DNA from: Zychaea mexicana
Taxonomy: Eukaryota; Mucoromycota; Mucoromycetes; Mucorales; Lichtheimiaceae
DNA: 64,000 bases
Assembly: GCF_025766255.1 (NCBI RefSeq)
Contig: NW_026516722.1
Coordinates: 124,001 to 188,000, forward strand
Reading direction: 5' to 3'
The notes below the pieces were generated by a model. The model had not been told where the DNA came from. It was given only the letters and a program-made list of their open reading frames with translations, and searched no databases. A program made the position numbers and the translations under genes. Below, piece after piece: positions 1 to 62,578 of this stretch (its first letter is position 1; each line of letters starts with the position of its first letter).

Positions 1-2422
1 GAAGTATACTTGGCTCGTCGTCATCATCTCCTTCATCATCACCATCGTCCCGTCGATGTTTCAAGGTGCGTAAGCGTCGGCTTCGTTCTGCGAGTCGGGA
101 ATTAAAGTTGAGAGTTCGTGTGGGTTGTGGTGTACGAAAGGCGAACCGTGAACTCGGCGATTTGAACCCTGGGCTTGTAGCTGCTTTATTGTAATAGATT
201 TCGGTATCGTCGTCCAAGTCATAGCGTAGGCGTCGCTGTTTGGCTGTCTTTCCATTGTTCTCCGTACTTTTAGACGACGATCCTGTGTCAGCATTCGGAT
301 TGATCTGATAAAACAAGCGTTATCACGAGTTAGTTCATGTTCTCTTTATCATCGTCATCAATATAATTCAAATAAGCAATTACCTTTTTCTTTCTTGCAT
401 TTGTGCCGTCGTCAGAAGACATGATCTGCTTGATATAAGGCTTCCCGTACACATAAAACGGATTTCCTGTCAGCACTTCATGCTCGACCAGGGCACGGAC
501 CAGTTCGTCTTTACTCTACAAACAATAGGGTCAAACTTTCTTTCTCCTATCTGTAATACACGCTGATCTTTGTGTCCGTTATCTTACCTTGGGCAGCTCA
601 CGCGCTATCCTCTTACGAAATTTCTCTTCGCGGAGCAACCGCCCAGGATCGCGTCGGCCTTTGCTGAACAGACGCGAAGGATCGTTCGTAATCTCCTACA
701 GAAAAAGAACGAGTTAGAGCCGTTTAAACTTCTTTTCTTTGACCGTTTTCTTATTAACTATACCTCAAAGTCTTTGATTTCTTCCAAAAGCTTCATGTGG
801 CTTTCCACCTTTTCGAGGATAGGTTTGCGATCTTGAATCAACTGGCGGAGCCGTGCAATTTCATTTTCATGGAGGCCGAGAATAGCATCATTGTACTCGG
901 CTAGAAAGTTTGCTTGTTAGTTCGAACATGGGACCCTCCCAAATCTTCGAAATCAAACAACGGTAAGAGAGCACCTCCCCACTAAGAGCATGACTTACGT
1001 TTAAAAGCTTGGTCGAATTCCTGACGCTCTTCCACTGAGAAATACAATTGATCCCACAGCCTATTGAGATCTTGTCGTGCATCAAAGATAAACTCCTGTA
1101 TTCGTTCTGCCTTGAGCTTTGTCAGTCTGTCCAGCTCGACTTCATACTAAAAGACGAAGAAGGAGTAAAATATATGTCAGATATGCATGCACTAATACTA
1201 CTACTGAAGCCATCTGGTCTACCTTTTCAATATCCTCTTTCTTCAATCCATTGCTTCCAGCTAAGAAGCTTTCACGGTCATGAGCTGGTATCTTGAGTCT
1301 CTCCCACAGATGGCTCAAATGTTGTATCACTTCTTGTTTTCGAAACTCGCGTTCCTGCCTTATATCCTCAAGCTGAACAATAACAACAACCCCTCTTGCG
1401 TCAGAATTGTACTACAAACTTGCATGGCCTCAAATAAAAAGATACAAATGGCAGTTTTCTTCTGTTTACCTCTGTTATTCTTTGGGCGATGTATCGTAGG
1501 CCTTCATCTTTTATTAGTTCTGCATACAAAGAGTTCTTTTCAGCTTCAGGAATATCGTCGTGCAATTGATACATGGCACTATCTCGATCGCTTTGAGGAG
1601 CCAATCCAAGCATGAGCCATAAGTCAATCATCCGTTTTGCGCTTTCGTTGACGCGTTGTTTTCTTGCACGCTATATAATACGATTTAAAAAGGGCTTCCA
1701 GTTTAATATATATATGCTTTCCCGATGGTGGTTGGAGTTGTGTAGTATTAGATATCAATTTACATGTTCGTTTTGACATCGTCGTGTTTCTTCTTCTAAG
1801 GCAGTAACCGCCGGTAAGGACACATCAATGCTCTCGTGCACAATAAGGCTGGTGTTGACGAAACTTTCTAGGCTGTCAACAAAGGCATTGATTTCATGTT
1901 GTAACTCTATATTACAATATTTGTTGCTAACGTGTGAATATAGCTTGTATCGTTCTGGTTGTTACGGCACGTAAAAATACGAAACAATTACCGATGACGC
2001 CATCGAGACGCTTTTGATAATGCTATTGTTGTTATTTTCGTTATGAGAAATTTTGAAGAAAGGCCCTCCAAGAATAAAGAACAAAAAAGGTGTAATACCT
2101 TTTCCACAATCTCTCGTTCCACTTTAAGATCGTGTAAAGTCGACAGCAGCGAGTTGCTATAGGTAACACTGTCGTCAACGTATTCACCCATCAGTCGTTT
2201 TAAAGCAGAGATGCGTTGATATTCTGCTTTAATGGCTCCTTCAAGCGATTCTCGCTCGTATGCGATTTGGTCATGGTGTTGATCGGCTACGTGTAACATT
2301 TGATTAAAAAGCGTTCGTAATTGTTCGTCTTGTTTGTCGCTTGCTGTGCCAATTTCATCGTGAAGTAATTGAAGCTTTTGAAGTTTTTTATCGAGTTCGT
2401 TGATTAGTTTTTTGGTGGACAT
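1..2422 (-). CDS. ase1: Ase1/PRC1/MAP65-family microtubule bundler (3' end off the window)
   Basis: Members of this family cross-link antiparallel microtubules in the anaphase spindle midzone and support spindle elongation and cytokinesis. I see ten exons with GT-AG borders. The first starts at the ATG at 2422 (MSTKKLINELDKKL) and ends at 2099; a 31-base exon follows at about 1992-2022; later exons lie near 1766-1905, 1472-1672, 1208-1364, 1001-1147, 768-903, 587-700, 382-516 and 304 to the left edge. The protein is mostly predicted coiled coil. Family signatures are the phrases LNRLWDQLYFSVEERQEF and, further on, RDPGRLLREEKFRKRIARELPK split over the conserved basic spectrin-like region that binds microtubules. 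The last visible exon is a basic, disordered tail rich in Arg and Asp, as expected for the C-terminal tail. The stop codon is not in the window. Confidence in the family is high; exon edges are read by eye. Confidence 0.9.
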
Positions 2423-3597
2423 TTCGTACGGCCTGTGTTTTAATTAAGAGATTGAGATAAAGAAAGGGGAAGCTCCCCCACGCGCCTTTGCTTACTCAAA
2501 ATTAGAAGCGCCAGTGCGGAACGAGAGAGGGGGCGTATTTCTCTCGTGTTTCAAAACGCGCTCTTTTACTTGGCGCAAAACTTGAATGTTGTGTCGTAGA
2601 AAGATATTAGCCAAGTGCCTGTATAACCCATGCAGCAGCTAATTGAGCTGCGTTCAGAATCCAAGTACGTACCATTTTTGTATGAGTGTATATCATTCAG
2701 TTGCTCGGTGGTAGACATTAACGGTTTCATGCTGCTACTGATTACTGTTGTTGAACAGCTGTGCGCGATATCTATACTCGAGTATTGAGAAGGACGAGAA
2801 AAGTCAGTTTAGGAGGTAGAGGCGGTCTTGTGCTTTATCAGAAAGCTGATAGCTAATTGAAAAAGAGATCGCGATTTGCAGGGATATGTTCAGTCTCCAT
2901 AGTTAATACTGTAGTAGTACATAGTAGTAGCACATACGCTGCGCCTTGATTGTTTATGTGGCACTTAGCTGCTGACCTTGCGTGACACCCTATGATAAAT
3001 TTAAAGTAATGATTCGTAGGAGCAACTATTTAAGGATCGGCCACCTGATCGTTTTGTATTTTTTGACTCATGTTGTAGTTCTCGGGTAGGATCTAATTTT
3101 TTTTACGAAATGGTGTAATGAAAAGTAATAAGCATTCGGCACAGTAAACTGAGAAAAGACACTTCCATCATCATCAATGATCTATGTGGACCATTGATTT
3201 GCCATCGGACGGCAATACTAAGGCTTTTCCGGTAACACGTAGCGTGCACCACTATATTACGTCAAACAGTAATACATACACGTCATTGCTATATCCCGAG
3301 CAATCAACATCATATTAACCACAATATACAAGTGGGATAACCGCTTAAAAGCAAATAAAAGTTCTGATCAGTAGCAGTAGCACAACATGCGTGAGCACGC
3401 TGTGTTACGTGACCATGCTCGGTGATGGTTTTGCCGTACACACTGAGAACCAAGTCGACGAATTACATAATAGATAGCTAGCTGTGTACTCTCGAAACTC
3501 GTACTTACAAACAAAAATATAAAAGGCTTTCATAAAATACCATTTTTCTTTTGGTTATTCACACTTCACATCCCGGAACAAATCAAAAATATTCTAA
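2423..3597. other. Divergent intergenic region
   Basis: These 1.2 kb separate the start codons of the Ase1-like gene (minus) and the short-chain dehydrogenase (plus), so they should hold both promoters. I see no convincing coding exon, RNA gene or repeat in it. Confidence 0.6.
3518..3526 (+). promoter_or_regulatory. TATA box of the short-chain dehydrogenase gene
   Basis: The sequence TATAAAAGG lies about 80 bases upstream of the ATG at 3598. It is the only good TATA match close to this start. It is followed by a pyrimidine-rich stretch with CACTTCACATCCC, where transcription could begin. Confidence 0.5.
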
Positions 3598-4636
3598 ATG
3601 ACATTGACTTTTGTTGTCACGGGCACGTCTCGAGGAATTGGTGTTGAGTTTATCAAGCAGCTCTCTGCCAAGGGCCATACTGTGTTCGCATGCGCACGTA
3701 ACCCACACCAGTCAGATAAACTCCAGGTCTTAATCAATGATATAAATGTGCATCCTGTCGCTATGGACATAACAAATCAAGAATCCGTCAAGGTAAGCTT
3801 TAACTTTTACAACCATGTCACATGTGTACTTTGCGTTCTATGTGCGTTTCATTCTCATCCTCATGAAACATGATATATAATTTTCCTTTCTTTTCAGGCA
3901 GCTGTCGAGCAAATACAGACACTGGCCCCCGAAGGCATCGATGTACTGATCAACAATGCTGCTATTCCTGGCGTTTCGGGTGCTAATGTTACAAATACGT
4001 AAGAACTATATATAGAGCTTGCAAGAAGGTCTTCTCCTTTCCCACGCACGCACCCCGTTCTCAATTCGACACCCACTAAAATTGATAATTTTTTTTCCAG
4101 TACTGCAGAGGACTATATGAATGTTTTCGAAACAAATGTGGTTGGCACTTCGACTGTCACCATGTCGCTTTTACCATGGCTTCGTAAGCGTAATACTCGG
4201 CATATCGTGAATATTGTCTCGATTATGGCATCCATGCAGAATACTACCCGCGGAATTGGTGCAGCCGTAAGTCGTCTTCCTTCTCTAGTGCATTTGCTAC
4301 TTAGTACATCTTTGAGTATTAGTAGCAATTATACAGTAATACTAGCTTTGTGAGTTAGTCTACCAAAAACTATATTGCTAAAATTACCTCCAATAGTACC
4401 GTGTATCCAAAGCAGCGGAAAACATGCTGACAAGAACATTGGCCGGAGAACTGGGTGAAGAAGGATTTGTGGTTCTGGCATTGCATCCAGGGTGGGTAAA
4501 GACAGATATGGGTACCGATCAGGCTTTGTATACACCGGAAGAGTCGGTCAGTGGTATGCTCTCGGTTATTGGAGATATGTCACTGGAAACCAATGGCAAA
4601 TTTATATCCTTTCAAGGCAAAGAACTTCCTTGGTAG
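3598..4636 (+). CDS. Short-chain dehydrogenase/reductase (NAD(P)-dependent, C-factor/sniffer-like)
   Basis: A cytosolic oxidoreductase of the classical SDR type, spliced from four exons: 3598-3792, 3898-3998, 4101-4266 and 4397-4636. All phases agree and give 233 residues, a normal length for a minimal SDR. Residues 8-15 (TGTSRGIG) are the Rossmann TGxxxGxG cofactor loop; DITNQ and then LINNAAI (the NNAG-type motif) follow. The catalytic serine lies in IVNIVSIMAS and the catalytic pair is Y-x-x-x-K in YRVSKAAENML, made across the third intron. HPGWVKTDMG is the usual loop after the active site. The overall look is closest to the C-factor/sniffer carbonyl reductase group. The substrate cannot be told from sequence. 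It shares no obvious pathway with its neighbours. Confidence 0.92.
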
Positions 4637-16712: not shown

Positions 16713-18185
16713 TTTCGTAAACGGTCAATACCTGGTGCTTTTTTGGATGCGACTTTTCTAAAGCAAATTTAACCAGTTCGTTAGTAAAAAGACGGTCAGT
16801 GTGATTAGTAAGCTTATCATCATCCTCATAAACATTATGAGGACTGAATTCTGGTATTGGAGCATTAGGGCGGTGCCTAGGTAAGTTAGTACCAGCAAAG
16901 ACTGTTTGTAAATGATGTTTCTTGCGATCAGCAGCAACCTATGGGCCAGCCGGAACCGTAAAACAAGGATGGATATTCCTATGCTGCCTAATACGTTTTA
17001 TGGATGCTGTTGTTTTAGAGAAATCATCAGATGCAAGTTTGTTGCAAAATTCTTTCCAAGTTTGGCGACGGCGCTGTGCTATTAAGGATTTAAAGTGTTT
17101 ACGTGCTTCTTCATGTTTAGTAATCCAATAAGCTTTTTGTATACCTTCTGCTGTACGACGGCGTTGGTAATAAGATTCTCTTTCATTGAAAGCTTTATCC
17201 AATTCATCTGTCCAAAACCAATTGGCTTTTGGCATCCGCGGTGATTTTCTTTTGACAGTTTGGTCTAAGATACTATGGATGACATCAGTAAGATCCATGA
17301 TAGTTGTTCAATATCTGGTTTGTTGGTTTCAATCAGAGCCTGCTGTAGTTGTTGATGTATAGGCGGGATATTGTTGGAAAATTGCTGAATATACTCCTTG
17401 CGGATGTCATTATCAGCAAGTTTACCAAGATGCCATAATTGACGAGGATGATCCATGCGGTTAGGAGGGGAGGATGTTGTTGTGAATCGAAGGTGTACGG
17501 GTTTGTGTTTGGATCCAAGATCGTTGAGTATGGTAATGGATAAGGATGGGGTGGCCAAGTGTCATGTACTAAAAAATAAATCAATTATACTTTTTTCTTC
17601 ACTACCATCATTGTGTTTGTCAAAAAAGGTATATTGGCCATAAGCAACTTATGCGTTTTAACAAAGCAAACGGTTTTCACTAATCCAATTACGCATAGCA
17701 GTGCCGCGCGGATTGGAGTTGTGATCACCAGTGAACCTTGGATCGCGAGCGTTGAGGTCGCCACAAATGATCGTGTTAGTAGTAGAGCTGTTAGTATGAT
17801 GCAAAGAAATATTGTTTAGAAATTCTATGGCTTGGAATCGGGAAAAGTATGATAAGGAGGTAAGTAGACACAGTGGATTATCAAATCAGCGATTTGGTAG
17901 GATAATATATGTGGGGATGGTGATGGTAAGATATGAACAGGATAAGAACAGTTTGGATTGATTAATAAAGTTATACTCATTCGACCTCGGTTATTGTTGG
18001 CAGTTGGTCGACCGTAAGTATGATGTTGGATTCAATCTGTTGCATAACGTTGAGGTAGGAGTAACCATGTTTCTGTAAAATATAATAAAGTAGAGTCTGA
18101 GAATAAATTAATAATAGGGTGGATTGCCTGTCTGGTCAATCCATTGGCATTCCATAACGTTAGTTTTATATCGTTATATATTATA
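16713..18185 (-). pseudogene. LINE copy 2 ORF2 fragment (endonuclease and linker)
   Basis: From 18185 leftwards a frame reads NDIKLTLWNANGL, the same opening as ORF2 of copy 1 and typical of an APE endonuclease N-terminus, then LYFTETWLLLP (metal-binding Glu). Stops and frameshifts follow. At 16939-17298 a clean stretch reads RMPKANWFWTDELDKAF and TTASIKRIRQHR, which aligns residue by residue with the linker of copy 1. The fragment ends near GIDRLRK, before the RT core. Confidence 0.85.
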
Positions 18186-18201
18186 TTAATTATTTATCAT
18201 T

Positions 18202-20039
18202 GAGGAATAATCAATAATAAATAAACAATAATAAATATATATTTAAATATTTTACATTTAATTATAGTTATAAAAATTAGTTATAAATTTATTCCTTGAA
18301 TAAGAATACATTTTTCTATTATATAATCTTTTAAAAGTTCTTTTTCATTAAATGCAGATAATGATATCGATGAACTTTCATCATCATCATATCCCTTCCA
18401 TTTTACATAAAATTTATATTCTTTATCTTCAATAGAATGTTTTACTATCTTTTCAATTTCATATATATCATCATTTTTATTTATATCTCTTATTTTATTT
18501 ATATCAATAACTTTATTTTTATTTTTATTACGTTTTCTTTTCTTTGTTCTACCTTTAAATTCAGGGAAATCATCTTTATTAACATCACTATGTTCAGTTT
18601 CTTCTGAATTTATATTATTATCATTATCAATTATCATATCATTATTTATATTTAGCTCCATAACTTTTTTCTGTATAAGTTTTATTTCGTTAATTTTTTT
18701 TAATTGTTCCATTTGGTTTATATATACAATATCTACTAACTTATGTTCACTTGGAAACTCAAAATTATTGCTTTCCCAAAGTTTATGATGAGATTGTGTT
18801 ATTATATTAAATTTTTCTGAAAATCTCTTAATATTCTTCAATAAAAATGCAATCTTTAGTTGTAAATTAATATATTTATAATCAGTTGTTTTTATAGTTG
18901 AATTATTATTATTAAATCTTTTATATGTATTATTTAATTCACAAAATTGATTTTCTACTAAATTTCTAAACTTTCCAAATACTTTATTAAAATGTTTTTC
19001 TTGCTCATTTAAATTAATACCTGCTTCCTTTCTTATAGGATAGAAAAAGTTATTATCATTAAAATTTTTACCTTTTTCACTACATAATTCATAAAATTGA
19101 TTTAAAAATAAAGGATAACCACCATCAAATGCAATACAATCTTCTTCTTTTATTATATTATATAATTTCATATTAAGAAACATTGTTCCATCTGAACTTT
19201 CTCCACATAATTCACTTCTACTAACAAATATAACCATTTCATTTATATCAATCAGCACTTGAGTTCGTAAACCACTTGTTTTTAATTTATAAGACCATTT
19301 TTTTTGTAATGATATATCAGGTTTATTATATTCAATTGTACTATCATGTCCATCAAGTAATAAGGTTATATGTTTTAAATATTTAGGATTTTTAATTAAT
19401 GCTGATAAAATACGAATTTTTATATTAGAAAACATAGTTAAAAGACAATCATTAACTTTTTTATTTAATTTTTCATAATTTTTAATCCAAAAAGATTTAT
19501 AAAATGTATAATATGATGATGATGGTAAATTTTTATTTATTTCTTTATGGGTTTTTCCTTCTAACAAATGATAAATTAAATATAGACCTTTATCAATTTC
19601 TAGATATGGAGCAGGATATTCTTTATTCATATATAATTCATTTAAAAAAAAGAAAATTGCTATATAACCTAATTTTTTTTTCAATATATCTTTTATTTCA
19701 TTCATATTTTTAATTACTTTTAATTCTGACCTATGATTAAATTTTTTATTAATTTTTTTCCAATCATTTTCAAGAAATCCCCACTTATTTAACACAATAT
19801 TATTTATTTCTTTTTTTAGATCCTCTTTATAATTTTGATGTTCTTCATAATTTTCTACTATATATTCATCAGCCATAAAGTTCATAGTTCCTTCCATTTT
19901 GTATCATATTTTTATATTTATATAAATATTCAATTTTGATTAAATTATTATGTATAAAATAATTTTTATGTAATAAAAAAAATAAAAAATAAATTTTATT
20001 TAATTGTTTAAATAGAATATAGTTATTTATAATTATCTC
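18202..20039 (-). mobile_element. AT-rich DDE transposon with chromodomain, copy C (intact ORF)
   Basis: An element of about 1.84 kb, far more AT-rich than its surroundings, sitting exactly in the spacer between ORF1 and ORF2 of the decayed LINE. The LINE frames resume on both sides, so the ends are placed within about 15 bases. Likely ends are GAGGAATAATC on the left and, read inwards from the right, GAGATAATTAT; the target duplication is not certain. The protein is related to but clearly diverged from copies A (28474-30435) and B (39333-47915), so it is a separate subfamily. Confidence 0.7.
18281..19897 (-). CDS. DDE transposase with C-terminal chromodomain (copy C)
   Basis: An intact 538-residue protein, ATG at 19897. 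Residues 1-170 are a Lys/Asn-rich helical domain likely to bind the element ends. The catalytic core has LLLDGHDS (D182), IAFDGGYPLF (D258) and RNLVENQF (E315), the spacing and context of the DDE_4/IS5-PIF-Harbinger group (DG, DxGY, R-x-x-VE). A basic stretch at 449-463 (TKKRKRNKNKNK) could be a nuclear signal. Residues 478-527 are a chromodomain: IYEIEKIVKH, then EYKFYVKWKGYDDDE; Y479, W500 and Y503 match the methyl-lysine cage of HP1-type chromodomains. Such a reader would be expected to guide integration to histone H3K9-methylated chromatin, as in chromoviruses (inference). The open frame inside a dead LINE argues for recent arrival. Family assignment moderate; fold motifs clear. Confidence 0.82.
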   Translation of the reverse strand: MEGTMNFMADEYIVENYEEHQNYKEDLKKEINNIVLNKWGFLENDWKKINKKFNHRSELKVIKNMNEIKDILKKKLGYIAIFFFLNELYMNKEYPAPYLEIDKGLYLIYHLLEGKTHKEINKNLPSSSYYTFYKSFWIKNYEKLNKKVNDCLLTMFSNIKIRILSALIKNPKYLKHITLLLDGHDSTIEYNKPDISLQKKWSYKLKTSGLRTQVLIDINEMVIFVSRSELCGESSDGTMFLNMKLYNIIKEEDCIAFDGGYPLFLNQFYELCSEKGKNFNDNNFFYPIRKEAGINLNEQEKHFNKVFGKFRNLVENQFCELNNTYKRFNNNNSTIKTTDYKYINLQLKIAFLLKNIKRFSEKFNIITQSHHKLWESNNFEFPSEHKLVDIVYINQMEQLKKINEIKLIQKKVMELNINNDMIIDNDNNINSEETEHSDVNKDDFPEFKGRTKKRKRNKNKNKVIDINKIRDINKNDDIYEIEKIVKHSIEDKEYKFYVKWKGYDDDESSSISLSAFNEKELLKDYIIEKCILIQGINL

Positions 20040-21983
20040 TCATTAGTGGATGGTGATGGACTATTGGGACGGGATACAGATTGTTGTTCGCCTATACCAG
20101 CAGGTTCACCACTGGTGTCTATCAGGATGTCGTCATCTAGTTCGGGCGGGAGATTGGTGCCTAATTGTTGTAAAGCAGCAACTGCTGCTGCTTCAGGATT
20201 GGATGGTGGCAGGGATTGGGTTTGGGATGTGGCGTGGATTTGATCATACTCATCCTGTGTAATTTTTTTCTCAAATAGAAACAACGTGCTACAGAAAATT
20301 TAACAGGTGCGTGGATGAAAGTTAATGCTTTCATTAAGTAGCCATGATGCACCTCTAGGATTTTAGCTTCGCGATCTGCATTGGATAAATCAGCTAATTT
20401 TGGATATTCTATTAAGGAAGGGTCCAAAGGGTTAAAATCATCTTTAAGATCAATGCCAAGTTTGAGTAATTTATTAGTAATAACGCTAGTATACTCTTTA
20501 TGAATTAAAAGAGCAGCTGTTTTATGGTCAGGAAAATGAATATCAAGTACACACGAATTTTTGATTCACAAAGTGCGTAGGATATTAAGTAGATGTGAGA
20601 TAGTCATACGATGCTTTCTTAGGATATATATAAATTGATATCCCTAGTTAACTGGAACTTCCGGTAAATGGCGTGCAGCAGCCACGATAGCCCTTTTTTT
20701 AGGTGGACTTTTGGTTGTCGATTTACCCTTAGCTGCTGCTGTTGCATAGCTTTTTTTGGCTGGTGTATCATTTGTGGTGGTAGTGGCTGTAGTCGCATAT
20801 TTAGACGCAATCGATCTAGTTGGTTTGTCAGTTGAATCCTCCTTTCTGAGAATTCTTAGTAGATGTTGTTGGTGCTGTTGCAGCTGTGCAATTTGATTTT
20901 TTGCTGCCTGGAGCTCTTGAGCTAGATTCATATTTTCTCTTACCAATTTTGTGTTTTTAGCAAGAGCTTCTGCTAATTGTGCGACCATTTTGTTCGTTTC
21001 ATCCATATGTTTATGTAAATTGTGAACAAATTCAGGGGTGTTAGGATGCAAATGATCATAACGGTTAGTGTCGTACTCCTCTTGAGGAACAGATAACTGT
21101 TCCATTTGATTAGCCCAAGATTATTGGTTAGTTGCGTTTTGGTTAGTAGTAGTAATATTGTTATTAATATCACTAGTATTATTCGTTACCAAATTTTTGT
21201 TGTGCTTCCTCCTATTCAGTTTCTATTTCTGAATCAAGGTCAAGTTGGGTGTGCTTTTTTTGGTTTTTTCTATTGTTACCTGGTGGCTGTGTAATTTTTG
21301 CCCTTGGCTTGAAATTTAAAGCAGATGCTTCTCCATCTGCGACAGTAATAGCCTCTAATATACCCATATGGGCATATTGTTTTCTGCACTCTTTGCAATG
21401 GAAAATAGGTCTAGGTAGATCATATTTCGGATTAGTATCGGTAGATAGATTAATCGTACCAATATCTTTGCAGATAGGGCACACAATGAATGGTTTACCA
21501 TTCATAAAGTTTTGTTGCACACTTTTAATGAAACTTTTGTCCAGTAGCGCCTTTTTCTGAGCACTAGACCCAGGTTTTCCTCCTGAAGTAGCTAAAGGTA
21601 CTAGTTGTTGTTTTGTTATGCCCATTGTTTGATCACTACCAGGTGTCAAAGTGGCACGTAATGCAGAGGTATAGTGTTTCTTGGCAGTGGGGACGCGCCA
21701 CGTATAGGCTGGGATGACTGATGGCCTTCTTTTGTAGGTAGATAGGCTGTTAATTGCCTAAGATGAGTCTAAATCTCTAATAGGTGAAATGGCGATGTAT
21801 GAATGTCCAATTTTGACCGGGATTTCGATGGGAGGCGATGCTTTGGACGGTTCTAGTTGCCCTGGTAAGGTTGTTGTATTTTTTACGGTTGTTTGTGGTA
21901 CTTTTTTGATTCTTTGAAAAATAAAAAGGAAAACGTTTGTGTACTCGCACATAAAAGTAATGGAGAGAGAGGAAGAACCCATG
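20033..21983 (-). pseudogene. LINE copy 2 ORF1 (gag-like, broken)
   Basis: Related to ORF1 of copy 1 in order: a zinc-binding segment (KPFIVCPICKDIGTINL then IFHCKECRKQY, 21212-21649), a coiled coil (TNKMVAQLAEALAKN, 20644-21105), an RRM-like region with VHHGYLMKALTFIHAPVKFSVAR (20161-20427) and the C-terminal acidic tail ending PSTNER at 20033. At least three frame changes break it. It keeps CAG (Gln) in KKITQDEYDQ where copy 1 has a stop. Confidence 0.85.
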
Positions 21984-22692: not shown

Positions 22693-25600
22693 TCAATAGT
22701 CGATGATGGTGGGGGAGCGCGGTTTCCGGCGAGGCAGCTTGTTCAACAGAAAGTCGATCGGGTTTGGTTCCGCGTCAGCAGGCACCCCAAGACACGACGC
22801 CACTTGGAGGCAGTCGATCAGATGATGGCGACTTGTGCGAGTGGTGCCACAAAGGCAAGAAATTGGACGACCTGGTAGCCAACCCATGCGCCAGCGCAAT
22901 AGGCGGCTCCTGTCACGGGTTGTCATTGGTAACCAAAGAATGGGATCGATACCGAGGGAGGGACGTGCGGCCTTCAGTAGTTTCCCGCTGTACTGATCAC
23001 TGCGAAGCATCTGCAGGTTTTCCATGCGGTGGGTGCGGATGACAGTGTTGAGTGCGCGTTTATCAGCGTCTTGTGGTGGGTCAGGCAGCTGGGACCATAG
23101 CAGGTTGTGCTTAAGAAGCTTGCACCAAAGACGGTCTTTTGCACGGAGGAGAGGACGAAGCTTGGACAATAGAGCATCGGCAGGCAGGAAGTGGGCACGG
23201 ATGAGGAATTTGACGCCAAGGATCTGCACCCGTTCGGCCATAGTTGGTAACCCAGTCATATGACGGAAAACGGTTGTTGAGGAAGTGCGATGCCCGCCAA
23301 AGATCATACGTAAGCATTCATCTTGTGCTGTGTTGAGGGCTTTCGTTTCGTACTTGTAAAAGTTGCAGAGTGCCAAGCCATACTCCATTTTTGGGCGGAT
23401 GAACTGTTGGTAGAGGCGGGTAGAAAGGAGACGCGGAAACCCTGAAGGATTGCAACCAATGGTTTTGAGGGTGGACATTGCTGCACGAACCGAACCCGTA
23501 TTGCGTTGGATCAGGGCCTTGGTGTCGATTTTCATGCTGGTGTTGAAAGGGACGCCTAGGTATGTGAACTGTTGTTGGGTAATAAGCGGTTGGCCGTACA
23601 AGTGGAGTGGCTGAGAATTTGGTGAGGAGCTATGGGGATACAAGGCAACGCACTTTTCTGGGTTCCATCGATAACCAAGCTGGTAGGAATGTTCCTCAGC
23701 CTTGGCAAGTAAGCGTGGCATTTCTGCAGCGTCGGCCACAAGAGCTACATCATCAGCATACAACAAGCAGTTAACCCACTGCCCACCTACCGGTCGAAAC
23801 ACAGGCTGAACTGAAGAGGAAACAAAGTCATCTGATGGTGATGAAGAAGAAGTAGGAAAAGAAGAAATGTGGGTACGTAGAAAGGCGGGAAGAGAATTAA
23901 TGTAGAGGGAATATAAGTGAGGGGACAAAATTGATCCTTGTAGGACACCGGTTGTTGGCTTGAATGAACTGGATTTGACACCAGAGAGAATAACCTCTAT
24001 GGATACCTCATCGAACAGATTCCGGAGGAGACCAAGTAGAGCAGGAGAGGCCACAGGAGCAAGCGCACGCCAAATAATCGCACGATCAACAGTGTCGTAA
24101 GCTGACTTGATGTCAAGGAAAACTAGGACAGGCAATCGGTTACGTCCACCAGCACGGCGGTCTCTTTCGGCAAGTTCTTGTAGACATAGGGCTTGGTCGA
24201 GGGCACTACGTTGCGGACGGAAACCACCTTGGGCTATATCAAGAGGGGGAGAAGCAGCATGAAGACTGTCGGATAAGCAAATTTCCATTATTTTTCGAAA
24301 TACTGATGTCAGGCTAATAGGGCGGTAGTTATTGGGCATAGTAGCATCCCCTTTTTTGAATATAGGAATGACTTGTGCTACACGCCATGCTACAGGAGTT
24401 AATGACCATTTCCAGCAAAGTTGGAACAAAGCAGTTAATGGTGGCAGCAGTTCATTGTGGATCGGTGAGAGCATTTCAGCACGCAGGTGATCAACACCAG
24501 GTGCTTTACGGCGAGCAACAGTTTCAATGGCAGTTTTTACTTGAAGGTGAGTGAACGGGCAATCATCCTCAATTTCATGTGGTCCATGTGCTGGGAGGGG
24601 TGCTTCATCTCGATTTGCTGGTAAGTTGGCACCGGCATATACCATTTCTAGGTGCTGTTTCATGCGTTCGGCTGCGACTTGTGGACCGGCGGTATCTGTA
24701 AAGGTTGGCTGTACTTTACGATTTTGGCGAATATGCCTGATGGATGCGGTTGTCTTTGAGAAGTCATCAGTGGCAAGCTGGTGACAAAAGGTGCGCCAGG
24801 TTTGACGTCGCCGTTTTTGGATCAAGGACTTCATGCGTTTTACTGCTTCTTGGTGCCGGGTGAGCCACACTCCTTTTTGTATACCTGTTGCTGTGCGACT
24901 GCGCTGATAACAATGTTCGCGATGATTGAAGGCCTGCTGCAATTTATCGTTCCAAAACCAGGTGGCCTTTGGAAGTCGCGGAGCTTTTCGACCCAAAGTC
25001 TCATCCAACGCGTTGTGGATGGCTGTGGTGAGGCTGTTGGCCAGCTGTTCGATATCAGGCTCAACATCAAGGGTTAGTGCATTTTGGAGACTTTCATGAA
25101 TACTGCCGACATGATCTTTAAAGTTTTGTTGGTATTCTTGTCGTTTGTTAGTCTCTTGTAATTTGCTGAGGGCCCATAGTTGTCGTGGGTGGTCGAGGCG
25201 GTCGGGTGGTGGGATCGGGGTGGTGAAGGAGAGATGAACTGGTTTATGTGGAGAGCCAAGGTCCTGCTCTGTTGCTATAGTCAAATCCACATTATCCAAA
25301 GTATTAGTGCTCACAAACAAATCAATGATACTTTGTTCATAGATGTCGGTCCGTTCTCGGAACCGCTCAAAGGTGTTCTCGCCAAAGGTGAGTTCAGCAT
25401 TCCAGCAATGCAGTTGTCGTGCACGGATCCAATCACGGAAGAGCACACCGCGGCCATTTGTAGTGCTGTCGCCAAGTAGTTGGATATCACGGGCGTTGAA
25501 ATCACCGTATATGATTGTGTTTTGGCAAGTGCTATTAGGATCTAAAGGAAGGGAATGGAGGATTGCCATGGCCTCGGTATCAGAGAAAGAGCGGAAGGGG

Positions 25601-25929
25601 GGAAGATAGACACAATGGATAAGGAGGTCAATGACCTGGCATGATAATACATAAGAGGATGTGGAAGGGAGTACATTTACGGGGTAGGGGAAGGAGGGAT
25701 TGACTAGAAGAGCAACGCCCATTTGACCACGATTATTATTATTAACCGGTTGGCCATATGTGTGATGTTGGATCCAGTCAGTAGGGTAGCGATGTGGGGA
25801 AAGTAGAAAGGTTTCTGTTAGAAATATTAATGATGAATCTGAAAATAAAGTAGTAATTGGTTGTATGGCCTGATGGACCATACCATTTGCATTCCATAAT
25901 GTTAATCTGATATTATTTGTATTTGTCAT
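22693..25929 (-). CDS. LINE ORF2: APE endonuclease plus reverse transcriptase
   Basis: An open 1078-residue protein that would nick DNA and reverse-transcribe LINE RNA at the target. N-terminal APE endonuclease: LTLWNANGM, IFLTETFL (Glu ligand), TIIYGDFNARD, and GSPHKPVHL carrying the final His. The RT core follows: NNYRPISLTSVFRKIME, GFRPQRSALDQALCL, LDIKSAYDTVDRAI (first Asp), TTGVLQGSILSPHLY and the active site LLYADDVALVA. The C-terminal 130 residues hold RLLRWRMGWLPGRP then CLCGTTRTSRHHLIDC, a C-x-C-H-C zinc-knuckle-like end. No RNase H domain is seen. The ATG at 25929 follows six bases after the expected end of ORF1. Nothing visible disables this protein. Confidence 0.93.
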   Translation of the reverse strand: MTNTNNIRLTLWNANGMVHQAIQPITTLFSDSSLIFLTETFLLSPHRYPTDWIQHHTYGQPVNNNNRGQMGVALLVNPSFPYPVNVLPSTSSYVLSCQVIDLLIHCVYLPPFRSFSDTEAMAILHSLPLDPNSTCQNTIIYGDFNARDIQLLGDSTTNGRGVLFRDWIRARQLHCWNAELTFGENTFERFRERTDIYEQSIIDLFVSTNTLDNVDLTIATEQDLGSPHKPVHLSFTTPIPPPDRLDHPRQLWALSKLQETNKRQEYQQNFKDHVGSIHESLQNALTLDVEPDIEQLANSLTTAIHNALDETLGRKAPRLPKATWFWNDKLQQAFNHREHCYQRSRTATGIQKGVWLTRHQEAVKRMKSLIQKRRRQTWRTFCHQLATDDFSKTTASIRHIRQNRKVQPTFTDTAGPQVAAERMKQHLEMVYAGANLPANRDEAPLPAHGPHEIEDDCPFTHLQVKTAIETVARRKAPGVDHLRAEMLSPIHNELLPPLTALFQLCWKWSLTPVAWRVAQVIPIFKKGDATMPNNYRPISLTSVFRKIMEICLSDSLHAASPPLDIAQGGFRPQRSALDQALCLQELAERDRRAGGRNRLPVLVFLDIKSAYDTVDRAIIWRALAPVASPALLGLLRNLFDEVSIEVILSGVKSSSFKPTTGVLQGSILSPHLYSLYINSLPAFLRTHISSFPTSSSSPSDDFVSSSVQPVFRPVGGQWVNCLLYADDVALVADAAEMPRLLAKAEEHSYQLGYRWNPEKCVALYPHSSSPNSQPLHLYGQPLITQQQFTYLGVPFNTSMKIDTKALIQRNTGSVRAAMSTLKTIGCNPSGFPRLLSTRLYQQFIRPKMEYGLALCNFYKYETKALNTAQDECLRMIFGGHRTSSTTVFRHMTGLPTMAERVQILGVKFLIRAHFLPADALLSKLRPLLRAKDRLWCKLLKHNLLWSQLPDPPQDADKRALNTVIRTHRMENLQMLRSDQYSGKLLKAARPSLGIDPILWLPMTTRDRSRLLRWRMGWLPGRPISCLCGTTRTSRHHLIDCLQVASCLGVPADAEPNPIDFLLNKLPRRKPRSPTIIDY

Positions 25930-26153
25930 ATTAATTATTGGGAATCGTTATGAGCGCTGTTAGTTGTTGTGCTGCCACTTTGAGGCTGTTCGTTACCAAT
26001 GATCGGGCTAGCCGATCTGCTATCACCCATGGGGGCATCACCGTCATCATCAGTGCCTCTGCCAAGTGATTGCAAAGCAGCAATTGCAGCAGCTTCGGCC
26101 TCTGGAGTAGTTTGTCGAGAGCGAGTTGATCCACGGACATCATCATATTCTTC

Positions 26154-27683
26154 CTATGTGATCAAATTTTCCAGAAAGAAAGAACGAGCAACTGAATACT
26201 TTACCGGTGCACGGATAAAACCCAGGGCTTTGAGTATGTGACCATGGTGGACTTCTGTGATTTTCTGTGTACGTTCTTCCACGGTTAGTTCAGCTAGTTT
26301 TGGATCTTTTAGTAGGTTGGGATCCAAGGGATTAAAGTCATCTTTGATATTGACACCGAGCTTGAGCAGGCGAGCTGCTATAGCACCAGCATATTCGTTA
26401 TGAACCAATAAAGCTGCAGTTTGATGGTCGGGAAAATGGATGTCTAAAACACGCGAATTCTCGATCCGGAGCGTGCGCAAAAGACCACGCATGTTGGTGA
26501 TCGTCATACGATGGCGGCAGGGGATATAGATGAATTGATATCCCTGGTTCGCTGGAACTTCGGTCAAGTGGCGGGCTGCTGCTGCAACTGCACGCTTCTT
26601 GGGTGCACGGACACCTTTAGCTGCTACTTTGGCGTAGCTAGGGGTAGTTTTTGATGCTGGTGGTGAAGAGGGTTTTTCAGTGCCAGGTGCATATTTGGAT
26701 GCCTGCGATCCTTGCGGTGCTGGGTCCTCCGAACTGGTGATAGCTGCGTGCTCTTTTTGCTGCGGTTGATGTTGTTGCTGGAGCTTGGCTATCTCTGCTC
26801 GTGCTGCTTGGAGTTCTTGTGTTAGTGTAGCATTTTCTTTTATTAGTTTGCTGTTTTTGGCAAGGGCCTCTGCCAGCTGTGCGACCACTTTGTTAGTTTT
26901 ATCAATACGCTTATGGATGTCCATAACATATTGTGGCATGTTAGGGTGAAGGTGGTCATATTGATCACTATCTTCTCTGGCAGTTTCCGTAGCAAGGCGT
27001 TCAATATGCTCGGCCCAGTTGTTTTCATCAAACTGTTGTTGTTGTTGCTGGGGTACAGGTAGGTCGATATGTTCCTCGTGTTCGGTTTCCATTTCAGTAG
27101 CAGCTGTAGTTTGTATAGGCTTTTTGGTACTATGCAGAGGAGAGGCGTTCTGTACCCTTGGTTGTTGGCGTTGATACGTACCTGCTTCAAGGGCTGCAAC
27201 AGTGAGTGGTTCCAGCATGATGCTATTGGTGAATTTTTTGCGGCATTGCATGCAGTGGAAGGTGGGGGCTGGGGGGTCAAAAGCTGTGTTAAGGTCAGCG
27301 GACATGTTAATGGTACCAAAGTCCTTACATTGTGTGTTCGGGCACACAATATAGGGTTTTCCAGTGGCAAAGTTCTGTTCCACAGTTTTAATGAACTCGG
27401 GGTTCAAAGGCTGTTTGTAAGGGGCAGCTCCTTTTTTACCAATAGTGCTCGTTACTGCTGTTGTCTTCGTTTTCGGCGCTTTGGTCATTTCGTTTTGACA
27501 ATTTTTTACAATTGTTGAGCGCAGAGATGATGTCCGATTCTTTTTGAATGCGGGGATTGTTGATGGCCGCACAGGTATGTGAGATTGGCGCAATCGCTTC
27601 GGGCGTGATGGAATGGGGGCTGCTGATGCTGAATGGTTTTCGCCAGATGGGGATGAGTGCAATTGCGAAATGTCGCTGGACAC
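26154..27683 (-). CDS. LINE ORF1: gag-like RNA-binding protein (truncated by a stop)
   Basis: The frame is open from about 27780; the first ATG is at 27488 (MTKAPKTKTT), which matches MGITKQQ in copy 2, so the true start is either that ATG or a non-ATG codon upstream. Domains in order: a Cys-rich zinc site (KPYIVCPNTQCKDFG, then FHCMQCRKKF), a coiled coil (TNKVVAQLAEALAKN), basic Ala/Lys linker, and an RRM-like domain (GYQFIYIPCRHRMTI to GFIRAPVKYSVARSF). It stops at a TAG (26154-26156) where copy 2 has CAG, cutting off about 73 residues that stay open downstream to about 25935. ORF1 proteins bind LINE RNA as trimers or multimers; that is family knowledge. Confidence 0.85.
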   Translation of the reverse strand: MSSDISQLHSSPSGENHSASAAPIPSRPKRLRQSHIPVRPSTIPAFKKNRTSSLRSTIVKNCQNEMTKAPKTKTTAVTSTIGKKGAAPYKQPLNPEFIKTVEQNFATGKPYIVCPNTQCKDFGTINMSADLNTAFDPPAPTFHCMQCRKKFTNSIMLEPLTVAALEAGTYQRQQPRVQNASPLHSTKKPIQTTAATEMETEHEEHIDLPVPQQQQQQFDENNWAEHIERLATETAREDSDQYDHLHPNMPQYVMDIHKRIDKTNKVVAQLAEALAKNSKLIKENATLTQELQAARAEIAKLQQQHQPQQKEHAAITSSEDPAPQGSQASKYAPGTEKPSSPPASKTTPSYAKVAAKGVRAPKKRAVAAAARHLTEVPANQGYQFIYIPCRHRMTITNMRGLLRTLRIENSRVLDIHFPDHQTAALLVHNEYAGAIAARLLKLGVNIKDDFNPLDPNLLKDPKLAELTVEERTQKITEVHHGHILKALGFIRAPVKYSVARSFFLENLIT

Positions 27684-27856
27684 TTGGCTGTTAGTGGGCG
27701 TGTTGTTGGTACTGTTCGGTGGTATAGGTGTTGAGGGTGCTATTTTTACTGATTTTTGGGGGGTTTTTTTGTAGTTTTCTTAAGAGTTTTGAGCGAAAAT
27801 AATAAAAAGTATGTAGGTCACTATCCAAAAAAAGTGATGGAGAGTGGAAGAAGCGG

Positions 27857-28470: not shown

Positions 28471-28473
28471 ATA

Positions 28474-30435
28474 GGGAACTAATCATTAAATATAGATTTA
28501 TATTACTAGGATTGATTTTGAAATTATTTATTAATTAAATATAATTAGTAAAACATTTAATTTAATATTTAAAATCTGATATTATTTTTTATAAAATATT
28601 TTATAATTAAATCTTTTTCGTTAAAGTCTTTTTCATTAACCCAGGAATTTTGAGATTCATCATAATCCTTCCACTTTACTAAAAATATGTAATCATTATC
28701 ATTTAATTTATGTTCTAATATGTTTTTTATTTCATAAAAGTTGTTATTTTTATTTATATCTCTAATTAAATTTATATTTATTTTTCTAGCATTTTTTCCT
28801 TTTTTTCTCTTTTTCTTATTTATATTTTTATATTCAGGAAAATCAATTTCTTCTATTTCATTATTATAATTATTACTATCAATTATATTTTCAGTATTTT
28901 CTAAATTTTCATTATCTATTATCATTTCATTATTATTTATATCTAAATCATCAATTTTTTTTGTATTTCTGATATATATTTTATTTTATCTAATTGTTTT
29001 ATTTCATTATTTAATACTATATCAATTAATTTATTATCTGTAGGAAACTCAAAACTGTTTTCTATCCATAACTTATGATGATCTTGTGTTATAATATTAA
29101 ATGTTTCTGTAAATATTTTTATATTTTTTTAAAAGAAATGCTACTTTCATTTATATTAACATACTTATAATCATCTGTTTTTGAAGTAGAATTATTATTT
29201 AAAAATCTTTTAAATGTATTTATTAATTCACAAAATTGATTTTCTATACTTGACCTAAAAGAGCCAAATACATCATTATAATGCTTTTCTTATTTATTTA
29301 AATTTTCATTAGGCTCTTTCCTAATTGGATAAAAGAAATTATAATCATTTAATTCTATATTTTTATTTTTACATAATTTTTCAAATTGATTTATAAATAA
29401 TATATAACCGCCATCAATAGCAATAACATCCCTTTTATTAATTTTATTATAAATTTTCATATTTAGAAACATACCTCCATCACTACTCACACTACATAAT
29501 TCACTATCCGAAACTGTAATAACCATATTATTTATATCTGATAATACCTGTGTCCTTAATCCAGCTGTTTTTAATTTACATGACCATCTTTTTTGACTTG
29601 AAATATCAGGTTTACTATAATCAATTGTATTATTGTGACCATCCAATAATAATGTTATATTCTTAAAATTTATAGGGTTTTTTAATAAAGCTGAATATAC
29701 TCTTATTTTAATATTACTAAACATATTTTGTAAGCATAAATTGATATATTTAAATAAATGATCATAATTTTCAATCCAAAAATCTTTACAAAAAGCATAA
29801 TAACTTAGATAGGGAATATTTTGTTTTATATCTTTACTAGTAATTCCTGATATAAGATGATAGATTAAATATAATCCTTTTTCAATTTTAAAATAAGGGG
29901 AAGGGTACTCTTTATTGGTATATAATTTAGTTAAGAAGAAAAATACAGATATATATCCTAACTTATTTAAAATTTCTTTTTTTATAATATTAATTTCTTT
30001 TATATTTTTTTATTTAGTTCTATGTTTATAATTATTTAATTTTTTTTTCCAATTATCATTTAAAAAGTTCTACTCATTCAATATGATTTTATCAACCTCA
30101 TGCTGTAATAGTTCTTGATATTCTTATTTATCATTTTTATTCAAAATAGTATTATTGTATTCTTCAAATAACATCAGTGCATATTTTAATATATGTATAA
30201 ATTCAATTTTCTTTATAAATAGTATGCAAGATTATGTAATCTTTTATTTATAATTTCTTTAAAAATATTATGATATTTATTATTTAAAAAAATGTTATTA
30301 TCTAAATTTAAAATTTTAAACTCTAAATTGATCATAAAAAAATATTTAAAAATATTTAATTTCTATTTATATTAATCTATATATTATATTTAATTTATTA
30401 ATTTTTCTATATTTAGTAATTATAAATTGATTCCC
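28474..30435 (-). mobile_element. AT-rich DDE transposon with chromodomain, copy A (decayed)
   Basis: A 1962-bp element flanked by the 3-bp direct repeat ATA (28471-28473 and 30436-30438). Ends read inwards are GGGAACTAATCATTAAATAT on the left and GGGAATCAATTTATAATTAC on the right, an imperfect inverted repeat beginning GGGAA and sharing TAAATATAG. Copy B has the same two ends and the same ATA duplication, which makes the boundaries firm. Confidence 0.92.
28569..30174 (-). pseudogene. Chromodomain DDE transposase, copy A (several stops and frameshifts)
   Basis: The ATG at 30174 opens MLFEEYNNTILNKND and hits TAA soon after. The core survives at 29290-29724: ITLLLDGHNNTIDYSKP (first Asp) and VIAIDGGYILF (second Asp). 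The C-terminal ORF (28569-28925) keeps the chromodomain: FYEIKNILEH and YIFLVKWKDYDESQNSW, with cage residues Y, W, Y in place. A frame break separates the core from the C-terminus. Compared with copy B several CAA/CAG codons read as stops here. Confidence 0.88.
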
Positions 30436-30438
30436 ATA

Positions 30439-39329: not shown

Positions 39330-40239
39330 ATAGGGAATCAATTTATAATTACTAAATATAGAAACATTAATAAATTAAATATAATATATAGATTAATATA
39401 AATAGAAATTAAATATTTTTAAATATCTTTTTTATGATCAATTTAGAGTTTAAAATTTTAAACTCAGACAATAACATATTTTTTTTTTAATAAATATCAT
39501 AATATTTTTAAAGAAATTATAAATAAAAGATTACATAATCTTGCATAATATTTATAAAGAAAATTGAATTTATATATATATTAAAATATGCACTGATGTT
39601 ATTTGAAGAATACAATGGCTAATGTTCAATATAGGAACCCGGGCACTTTTGAGCGACATGAGTGTCGGTGTTTCTTTAAATTTTGTGTAACGGTAACCCA
39701 ATATATCGCATATGTGTGTACCAAATTTCGCAGTCACAGCTATAAAACTCGCAGAGATATAAACAGGCAACGTAGTGGATATCATATCTTGTAAAATTGA
39801 TAGTGATGGCTACCTCTAAAAAAAATAAAAAAGATACTAGCAATCTCAATATGAAGACAATGACTACATTTCAGACCAATCTTAAAGCTCTAGCACGTAA
39901 GAATAAATGAATATTATCTACACTGATAAATAATGATACTTGAAGAATGAAAATTCTCAAATCTCAATAATACTTTCAAAATAAATACTTTTCTTTAGCT
40001 TCAAAGAGTGAATAGCACTGTAAAAGTACTATTAGAGGATAACCAAAAAAATATAGAGTAAATATCATTGTATATTCAAGGGTGATAACTAGTATAGAAT
40101 TATGATATGTATATACAAATCATATGCATTGTAGGGGTGAGATACTTACTAGAGCAAACATATAATAAATAAGTAAAGCATATTCACTGAAAATAAAGAT
40201 TAAGATATTGATATCATACCTAAGTGAGTGATAAGTAAC

Positions 40240-41330
40240 TGATACATATAAAAAAGAAAAAAGAAGAGTAGATAGAGCTATAGTATTGCAGCTATACTAA
40301 AGTATGTATGCTAGAAACAAAAGATGTATGTAAAAAGGAAGGAAATAAATAATCTAGCTAGCACTAAAGGATAGAAACAGCACAAATGAATGTACATAGT
40401 AAGCAAATGATGCCAGTAAAGAAAAAAAATAGGTATAGATAAATACTAAAAGACCGGAAATACTTTAACGTATGTATATAGTAAATAAAGAATACATACT
40501 AAGAGAGATTAATAGTTCAAGATAGCAATAAAGGATTTCAGACACATAAATGCATATAGACATTAAATAAAAGATGCAGAAGAGAAGTAAACAGTTACAG
40601 GTACCATCAACAGAACAAAACCATTCATATATGTATATATAAATAAATAATGCAATGAAAAGAAAAAGGAATAGTTATAGTACTACAAAAGGTCTCGAAC
40701 AATATAAACATATGTATGGAGTAAACAATGAATGCATGCAAATAGAAATAAACAGCTCTAGATCAGCACTAAAGTACTAGAACAGAATCAATGCATATAT
40801 ATGGTAAACAAAGAATGCATGCAAAGAGAAATAAATAGTTTTAGATAAACACACAAGGACTCAAACAGCGTTAATAGAATGTATAGAGTAAAAAAATAAT
40901 GCATATAAAGAGAAGTAAATAGTTCCAGATAAACATACAAGGACCCGAACAGTGTAAGTGCAATGTATAGAGTAAACAAAGAATGCATGCAACGAGAAAT
41001 AAATAGTTCCAAATAAGCACATAAGATCCAAACATGAATAACCTATGATTATGGAGAAGCAAAGTAAATGGTTAAAGATAGCTCCGAAGGATTGATGCCA
41101 CTCAAATGCATGTACATAATAAATAAAAGATATTGAAGAGAAGTAGGTAGTTATAGATAGCATCAACAGATTGCAGCAGCACATTATTTGTATGTATAAA
41201 CAAAAGATGCAAGGAAAAGAGAAACAAATAGTTATAGTACTAGCAAAGGATTAGAGGAATATAAATGCATGTACGGAGTAAACAAAGGATGCATGCAAAA
41301 TCAAAATAAACAATTATATGCAATAATCCA
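40240..41330 (+). repeat. Degenerate minisatellite, unit about 82 bp
   Basis: The phrase GAATGCATGCAAAGAGAAATAA and its variants recur near 40568, 40648, 40730, 40812, 40893, 40979, 41127, 41203 and 41286, mostly 76-86 bases apart; weaker copies extend to the left. The unit contains ATAAATAGTT and TGCATGTA. It ends shortly before the transposase promoter. Confidence 0.85.
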
Positions 41331-41410
41331 TACCCAATAAAGTTAAGAAGATACAACAGCAATAATATGCTGTGATATATCTAGTAAGATTACCTTCACT
41401 GTTAAAAAAC

Positions 41411-41420
41411 TATATAAAGG
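41411..41420 (+). promoter_or_regulatory. TATA box of the Merlin transposase
   Basis: TATATAAAGG, 84 bases before the ATG at 41504, directly downstream of the minisatellite. Confidence 0.6.
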
Positions 41421-41503
41421 CACCAATATTTTTCAGTTTAGTTCATTGCTATTTTCATTATCCCTTTTTTACTTACGTTCTTCATATTCTGTATCATCTA
41501 ACT

Positions 41504-43100: not shown

Positions 43101-43684
43101 TTATACTAGATGCTTCTATATCCCTATATTATTATCTCATTTATATTTCAATCCCTTGCAGTTTTTTCTTATAACAATTCAGTTTTATATATCTTCTATC
43201 AATAAAATAGCTTAGTCTGGACATTTCTCTGTATTAACTATTGATATATCACTAGTAAAAAGTATAGAAAATATTTACTCTACTTCAAAGTTTGATTGCT
43301 CCCCGAATATGTACCGCTAAGCCACAAAAATTACACCAATAAACAGCCTATTGTCTTGGCTACTTTGATGCAAAATTTCATTTGTGTAACGTCACGTGAA
43401 CGCTGGGAAACCCCCGGGTTCCTATATTAGGCGGTAACCGAATACAATAATACTATTTTAAATAAAAATGAAAAACAAGAATATCAAGAACTATTACAGC
43501 ATGAGAGCATCCCCAGCGGTTGTGCCAAATCCCATCCTAAATTTGGAGTCAGTTATCATAGGGGGACCATAGAATTCACATATTTTCCCAGCGGTTGTGC
43601 CAATTTCGTGTTCCAAAATTAAACTTTGCTGTAAAACTCCTTTTTGACTCTCCCACTTATTTTTATTTGATTCTTCAGAAAAAC

Positions 43685-45032: not shown

Positions 45033-45127
45033 AAAATATATTCTTTCCATGTAAATAACAGTATGAACAAACAGTACTTTGACTTTAAGCAAATGAGTTC
45101 TTTTGTATAAACATTTATTAATAAGTA

Positions 45128-55300: not shown

Positions 55301-56037
55301 ATATTAGTACAGATGGTCAGGTACGTATTTGTGATGCAACGGGTTTATGAAGATATAAACATACTTCGCCATGATCGGACAAGTCATCATGATTGCTGGT
55401 GGAAAGACGGCGTTTACCAAGAATTGAAAACTCGGGTTGGTTCATTGTAAGTATCTACACAGGCATGGCAGTGTATTAATTATAGTAAAGAAAAGTGGTA
55501 GGATACATCACAAAATAATGTAAGTGAAAAGTGGTATAGTTTACTCAGTTATTAAAATAAAAGTATGCGGATATGCCTTTGAATCGTTCTTCTCTTCTTG
55601 CTTTTATATATGTTGCTTCCTTGTTCTTTTATATCTCTTTTTGCAGCATGATAGACTTTCAAGCATGATAGATTTTCAAGCATGATAGTAAAGCACTTCT
55701 ACATCGTGCATTAACGATCCGCTACGGCGCCGGGATGACGCTTGATAGGATAGGACGTAATTTCCTTAAACGTAATATATTTCCGCCACAATTGGGCCCA
55801 ACTCAAAAAGATCTACGGTATCAGGCTATCGGTGCAAACCGGGTTTGCTTTTTTGCTAAATAAAACAGCTATCGATATTCAGTGGGTGCCTCCGTATTAT
55901 ATAGTCTGATAAGCTTTCTACTTTTCCACTCCCATGTATGCTTATGCCCATCACTATTGAATTACGAGATTCCGTTACTTGATTCCGCTGATAACAAATC
56001 CCGTTGACATCGGAGCCATTTGCTTTGATATGCTCCT
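55301..56037. other. Left flank of the chromovirus
   Basis: No gene. A small direct repeat (GCATGATAGA-TTTTCAA, about 55645-55690) is present. The phrase GCTGATAAC recurs on the far side of the chromovirus (62960 and 63050), so this is one broken region. It may be the 5' part of the hAT element. Confidence 0.5.
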
Positions 56038-62528: not shown

Positions 62529-62578
62529 AACGTCTTGATATAGTCTCTGCTCAGAACGTCGAGCACGGTTTTACGAAA

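Follow-up and report, generated by a model that had tools for sequence, protein, structure and literature searches.

The DNA transposons of the PIF/Harbinger group (PHIS, for PIF/Harbinger-ISL2EU-Spy) have a DDE_Tnp_4 transposase core, short inverted ends and 3-bp target-site duplications (TSDs); a TWA target is preferred in the canonical families, and the ALP1 and ALP2 proteins are of Harbinger origin. Ty3/Gypsy chromoviruses carry a C-terminal chromodomain on their DDE enzyme, and the Maverick/Polinton elements are giant transposons with a retroviral-type integrase. In our study, a family of compact elements has been analysed from a window of 64,000 nucleotides (the whole stretch examined) of the fungus Zychaea mexicana, RefSeq assembly GCF_025766255.1, contig NW_026516722.1, positions 124,001 to 188,000 of the forward strand. 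Copy 1, one of three copies in the window, encodes a protein of 538 amino acids (aa) in which a DDE_Tnp_4 core is followed by a basic linker and then by a C-terminal chromodomain. With a probability of a little under 0.6, we propose a Harbinger-like (DDE_Tnp_4) cut-and-paste lineage in which an HP1-type chromodomain docks the transposase on methylated histone and thereby biases insertion to silent chromatin.

Published descriptions place chromatin-related domains on several kinds of transposon. In the fungal TET transposons, which are arranged under the PHIS classification, HarbingerS carries a SET histone methyltransferase (PMC12730594), and some Ginger1 elements have a PHD finger; the available text of the Ginger paper names OTU, Ulp1 and PHD and does not mention a chromodomain (PMC2836005). 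These domains are other than that of our family, and Ginger is another transposase lineage. Chromodomains on DNA transposons have been reported for Maverick/Polinton, and a screen for fungal co-option attributes chromodomains to Mavericks and chromoviruses (PMC10799480), unlike the compact DDE_Tnp_4 elements of 1.8-2.5 kb studied here. In Ectocarpus, Gypsy chromodomains and Tudor have been described along with Harbingers of two tail-to-tail genes, and Harbinger target duplications are given as TNA or ANT (PMC12477816). In the open-access literature, as far as its text was available and with Repbase and subscription journals outside the scope, no family with such a transposase-chromodomain fusion was found to have been described. 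Chromodomains are named in only the reference list of PMC4007536 and are absent from the main text of PMC6875170. The fusion is already catalogued at the domain level, since the proteins are public and some of them are automatically named 'Chromo domain-containing protein'.

In the copy-1 protein, both DDE_Tnp_4 (E 9.3e-10) and Chromo (E 6.9e-8) exceeded the curated Pfam cut-offs. VIA-align matched the DDE core with piggyBac, Tn5, ISCth4 and integrases. The chromodomain was predicted by AlphaFold2 (AF2) as three strands and a C-terminal helix, and structure alignment placed this model within 0.9 A of HP1 across 52 residues. Its cage residues Y479, W500 and Y503 superposed on Y24, W45 and Y48 of HP1, with a constant offset of 455 in 52/52 aligned positions. 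The HP1-type chromodomains (HP1, CBX, MPP8 and Swi6) share this fold and aromatic cage and differ from the window domain, which is fused to a transposase and is accompanied by no chromoshadow domain over the Pfam cut-off. A candidate end-binding helix-turn-helix (HTH) was seen in the model at residues 100-138, for which there was no Pfam HTH match. These Pfam profiles and predicted folds bear out the first-pass annotation, which had proposed a DDE transposase fused to a chromodomain at 18281-19897 and had placed D182, D258, E315, Y479, W500 and Y503 exactly where they are found; the gene lies on the minus strand. The same annotation had called this copy intact, which is true of the open reading frame (ORF) and not of the chromodomain, where the Trp at position 510 is replaced by Ser.

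The catalytic D/D/E residues, as well as aromatic residues at the three cage positions, were present in 53/53 aligned proteins including that of the window, a set picked as near full length with a chromodomain and hence favouring complete proteins. A chance ORF was considered and rejected, as such conservation is beyond chance. These analyses support a cut-and-paste transposon in which an IS5/Harbinger-type DDE core is fused to a true chromodomain.

Copy 1 is a whole transposon of 1840 bp whose ends, reading inward, are GAGGAATAATC and GAGAGATAATT. A sister copy on a different contig (L002) is 98.4% identical across 1842 aligned columns, and the match ends exactly at 18202 and 20041. Of the three elements delimited by the first-pass annotation, those at 28474-30435 and 39333-47915 were exact, and the first ends at 20041 rather than at 20039. 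Copies 2 and 3 are 97.9% identical across 1629 aligned columns, both start with GGGAA at each end, and in both the frame is interrupted by stop codons and frame changes. Thirteen insertions had both ends placed, among L001-L030 (L001 being copy 1) and copies 2 and 3, the others having an unresolved end. In these, the 3-bp duplication was exact in 8, agreed at two of three bases in 3, failed in 1 and was ambiguous in 1, so that 8/13 are exact against 0.018 expected for each insertion. The left end of the L017 group was set where the duplication of L017 fits, which makes L017 not independent; 7/12 are exact without it. The eight exact duplications, on the strand as printed, are ATT, ATA, ATA, TCG, ATA, AAT, ATA and CAA, and none of them is a TWA target on either strand. 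Besides the transposase gene, only one ATG-initiated ORF of at least 60 aa (69 aa) was found in copy 1, and no reverse transcriptase (RT), gag or long terminal repeats (LTRs) were met within its 1840 bp. The family shares the C-terminal chromodomain on a DDE enzyme with the chromoviruses, and differs from them as a cut-and-paste element lacking these three features.

Copy 1 is inserted in a degenerate long interspersed nuclear element (LINE), between what is left of its ORF1 and its ORF2. The right flank matched the genome only at itself and gave no paralogous empty site; LINE homology therefore serves instead. The coordinates of these features are collected in Table 1.

Table 1. Positions of the transposon copies, their parts and associated features (window coordinates unless a locus is named)
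Feature	Position	Strand	Basis or remark
Copy 1, whole transposon, one-gene type	18202-20041	minus	Boundary where the L002 match stops in unrelated flanks
Target-site duplication ATT, left of copy 1	18199-18201		
Target-site duplication ATT, right of copy 1	20042-20044		
Transposase-chromodomain ORF, 538 aa (P0001)	18281-19897	minus	Open frame, no stop inside
Candidate end-binding helix-turn-helix, residues 100-138	19484-19600	minus	AF2 model, helices H100-113, H117-120, H126-138
RNase H-like DDE core, residues 171-365 (D182, D258, E315)	18803-19387	minus	Pfam, AF2, VIA-align
Chromodomain, residues 477-530, cage Y479/W500/Y503, Trp510 lost	18308-18469	minus	
Copy 2, a related element with a broken frame and a still recognisable chromodomain, NSW kept	28474-30435	minus	tblastn; TSD ATA 28471-28473 / 30436-30438
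Copy 3, frame broken, split by other insertions	39333-47915	plus	TSD ATA 39330-39332 / 47916-47918
LINE relic hosting copy 1	16715-21907	minus	tblastn with LINE at 22693-27779
Stretch nested in copy 3	43497-46295 (ends approximate)		Transposase ORF enclosed by 38-nt inverted repeats of 92% complementarity
ORF2, Cys/His protein, 175 aa	L017:3139-3663	minus	Tail-to-tail with transposase in longer family members

In the genome (50.3 Mb, 305 contigs), at least 80 family matches were scored from 827 first-look candidates. A whole or partial chromodomain is present in 29 of the 30 fetched copies, the exception being L013. Moreover, at least 27/80 family copies have a chromodomain within 2 kb, as judged from the best 150 of 429 chromodomain candidates, against 1/87 places of the Plant_tran class (PF04827), which we take to be related to Harbinger and whose places were collected with the window ORF at 43565-44386 as query. 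The GC content of copy 1 is 0.187 against 0.39 in its flanks, and all 30 fetched copies fall at 17.5-24.8%, including those down to 47% protein identity. The high AT content pointed out by the first-pass annotation is thus confirmed, and its hint at a foreign origin is not: a foreign gene was rejected, as low GC is common to all 30 fetched copies and is a family trait. One inverted pair of copies, L007 and L008 (G000:C13:251388-262393), lies only a few kb apart and is 99.8% identical across loci of 4581 bp including the flanks, which looks like a recent inverted duplication.

Outside this genome, the chromodomain family PF00385 is precomputed for 72 of 116 homologues in the protein database, in 67 of them together with DDE_Tnp_4, and a profile of distant members found both domains in 86 of the best 120 of 198 matches. 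Among the matches listed, the named sources with both domains are Circinella, Apophysomyces, Mortierella, Entomortierella and Dissophora; members without a Pfam chromodomain come from Lichtheimia, Mucor, Thamnidium, Rhizomucor, Linnemannia and Gamsiella. The named relatives listed are Mucorales and Mortierellales fungi, which likewise lends no support to a foreign origin, and the great majority of the homologues listed come from unnamed sources. A gene of the window had its best named match in Absidia cylindrospora (64%), and an environmental protein matched it at 93% across 76% of the query, in keeping with a Mucorales-like host. The pairing of DDE core and chromodomain seems to be of old date and to occur widely among early-branching fungi.

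The longer members of the family carry a second gene. The L017 element is 2.5 kb long (1345-3843), has ATA on both sides and contains a second, convergent ORF (ORF2) placed tail-to-tail with the transposase. An alignment of 15 versions of ORF2 (14 of 16 stretches, L077 and L078 being left out, together with L017) showed C73, C104, H107 and H111 to be invariant and C87 nearly so, a Cys/His pattern that suggests metal binding. No ORF2 match was found in Pfam above the cut-off, PDB sequences, phage records or viral contigs, and the structure model is poor (mean pLDDT 44.7); hence no fold or function is claimed for it. The transposase profile also found no relative among the viral contigs. In a neighbourhood count of 137 of the 150 ORF2 matches, a listed transposase copy was found no farther than 3 kb away for 32/137 places, and for 51/137 when listed chromodomains were counted as well; the control neighbours of these places were Plant_tran in 4, reverse transcriptase in 1 and kinases in 0. 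Grouped by identity to the window protein, 28/59 copies at 45-51% have ORF2 beside them, as have 1/2 at 52-56% and 0/19 at 57% or more, and from the last figure the branch of the window looks to be of the one-gene type.

The Myb partner was also sought. Myb_DNA-bind_4 lies within 3 kb of 0/80 family copies against 27/97 other DDE_Tnp_4 places, other Myb families not being searched; this comparison covers 139 of 159 DDE_Tnp_4 matches, and the 97 other places may contain unlisted family members. In the same genome, 26 of 31 Myb_DNA-bind_4 places are within 3 kb of other DDE_Tnp_4 genes. One of the 31, at C122:31687, is near a chromodomain, with a reverse transcriptase 2.5 kb off. The Plant_tran class had this Myb neighbour at 0/87 places. 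The family therefore resembles PIF/Harbinger in its core, ends and duplication length, and in some branches has a second tail-to-tail gene like the autonomous Harbingers of Ectocarpus (PMC12477816). It differs by its chromodomain, the lack of Myb_DNA-bind_4 near the 80 copies, the Cys/His nature of the second gene and the non-TWA duplications. As neither the Myb partner nor the TWA target was found, it is called Harbinger-like and is not filed as canonical Harbinger.

In the proposed mechanism, the short inverted ends would be the binding site of the N-terminal helices and the DDE core, which would cut the element out and insert it at a target opened by a 3-bp stagger. Tethered by a basic flexible linker, the chromodomain would hold the transposase to histone tails that carry methyl marks, most likely H3K9me2/3, and docking on silent chromatin would bias insertion to repeat-rich, gene-poor DNA. 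In Mucor, H3K9me2 heterochromatin is tied to transposon-rich regions (PMC12863538), so the target mark plausibly exists. Constraint on the domain is in line with such histone binding: among 7 open copies, the ratio of nonsynonymous to synonymous substitution rates (dN/dS) of the chromodomain is 0.25-0.92, below 1 in 21/21 pairs and below that of the linker in 17/21, with the window copy in 3 of the 4 exceptions; these pairs are non-independent and the synonymous sites far diverged. Trees of the DDE core place chromodomain-less proteins at several separate positions among the bearers (7 and 8 changes) and suit an old gain followed by several losses; they are read without a fixed root, one of them labels the decayed-cage proteins P0228, P0235 and P0240 as chromodomain-less, and some 'missing' chromodomains may be gene-prediction cuts.

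A number of observations weigh against this reading. The supported branches of the two trees force at least 6 and at least 7 changes of chromodomain state, and the Mortierellaceae proteins P0228, P0235 and P0240 (Linnemannia, Gamsiella and Entomortierella) keep D/D/E and have lost the equivalents of W500 and Y503; the domain is thus dispensable over time, and this decayed-cage group forms a natural comparison group. In the window copy, the Trp of the N-S/T-W motif, which is W in 51/53 and Y in 1/53 aligned proteins, is Ser510; its cage is present despite this change, and L002 retains the Trp (ENAWISLS). We infer that activity belongs to the family rather than to the window copy, whose chromodomain is damaged. 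The donor of the domain cannot be named from a tree built on 60 columns with 40 fusion, 7 Gypsy and 3 HP1-type domains, most of which lacks resolution; three fusion rows adjoin one Gypsy class without firm support, and the independent gain proposed by the first-pass annotation is at most a candidate reading. A Chromo_shadow search for a host HP1 reference had no match, and the controls were equally without match. If the domain were a relaxed or generic module, serving in dimerisation, DNA or RNA contact or stability with no methyl-lysine role, the repeated losses, the missing Trp510 and the Mortierellaceae cages would be readily understood. We regard this as rather improbable, given the cage aromatics in all 53 proteins and the dN/dS values. 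Far less probable, and strongly disfavoured, is a domesticated host gene or a horizontally acquired gene in place of a resident transposon, for which only the GC far below that of the flanks speaks. Against it stand the inverted ends, the target duplications, the 98%-identical copy at an unrelated site and the low GC of all fetched copies. A domesticated gene, looked for as single-copy and end-less, was rejected on the at least 80 matches and the transposon ends.

The location of the copies lends no support to biased insertion either. Places near a reverse transcriptase were as frequent for the family as for chromodomain-free Plant_tran at 10 kb (9/80 v 5/86, p 0.27), 20 kb (18/80 v 15/86, p 0.44) and 50 kb (25/80 v 27/86, p 1.0). 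Family copies do lie far from kinase genes and near retroelements (18/80 vs 2/112); the same neighbourhood is seen in Plant_tran copies, so that it could arise merely because insertions into genes are selected against. The test used 80/80 family, 150/150 reverse-transcriptase, 87/115 comparison and 114/160 kinase places, the last two collapsed to 86 and 112, and left out second pieces of the same gene, late rows and the size of each contig. As it covers the listed places and takes no account of contig sizes, its power is low, and survival bias together with the restriction to listed markers blurs the outcome, so that the null result neither refutes nor supports targeting. As the family copies are no nearer to retroelements than Plant_tran, targeting is something we infer. 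The absence of extra clustering would also be expected if the chromodomain reads methylated histone for the donor side, either to reach the element's own silenced copies or to counter or exploit silencing. This alternative draws on the same HP1 alignment and dN/dS constraint, and the domesticated transposases ALP1 and ALP2 are reported to act on Polycomb silencing in plants. On the other hand, a study of plant transposon localisation describes the chromodomains of chromoviruses as having a part in target choice (PMC12477314), and we consider the donor-side role unlikely, yet the most serious of the alternatives. A chromodomain that binds histone and takes part in target choice would remain our preferred explanation.

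On a wider view, held tentatively and at somewhat less than even odds, this would be an old Mucorales/Mortierellales Harbinger-like lineage that dropped its Myb partner and whose transposase acquired a methyl-histone reader, with a new Cys/His helper added in some branches. It would form a cut-and-paste counterpart of the chromoviruses, steering into silent chromatin, with reader-less sister branches as a natural experiment. Chromatin readers on integrases are known in retrotransposons; here the reader is on a compact cut-and-paste transposase and is constrained in two fungal orders. If target choice by histone marks holds true, it evolves outside retroelements also, and the domain losses in sister branches are ready comparisons. 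Further, a transposase that is encoded by one gene and brings its own chromatin reader could be of use in genetic tools.

The window holds several other elements. The stretch nested in copy 3 contains an ORF (43562-44386, plus) assigned to Pfam Plant_tran on profile positions 2-68 of 205 only and free of a chromodomain; this transposon has 115 genome matches, fragments included. An open frame at 54184-55344 (minus) resembles a piece of a hAT-type transposase, with no Pfam match at E 0.01. A LINE with open ORF1 and ORF2 (22693-27779, minus; RVT_1 2e-25) lies beside copy 2, and a Ty3/Gypsy chromovirus in several open pieces is found at 56750-62570 (minus), its integrase chromodomain matching Chromo at 2e-19.
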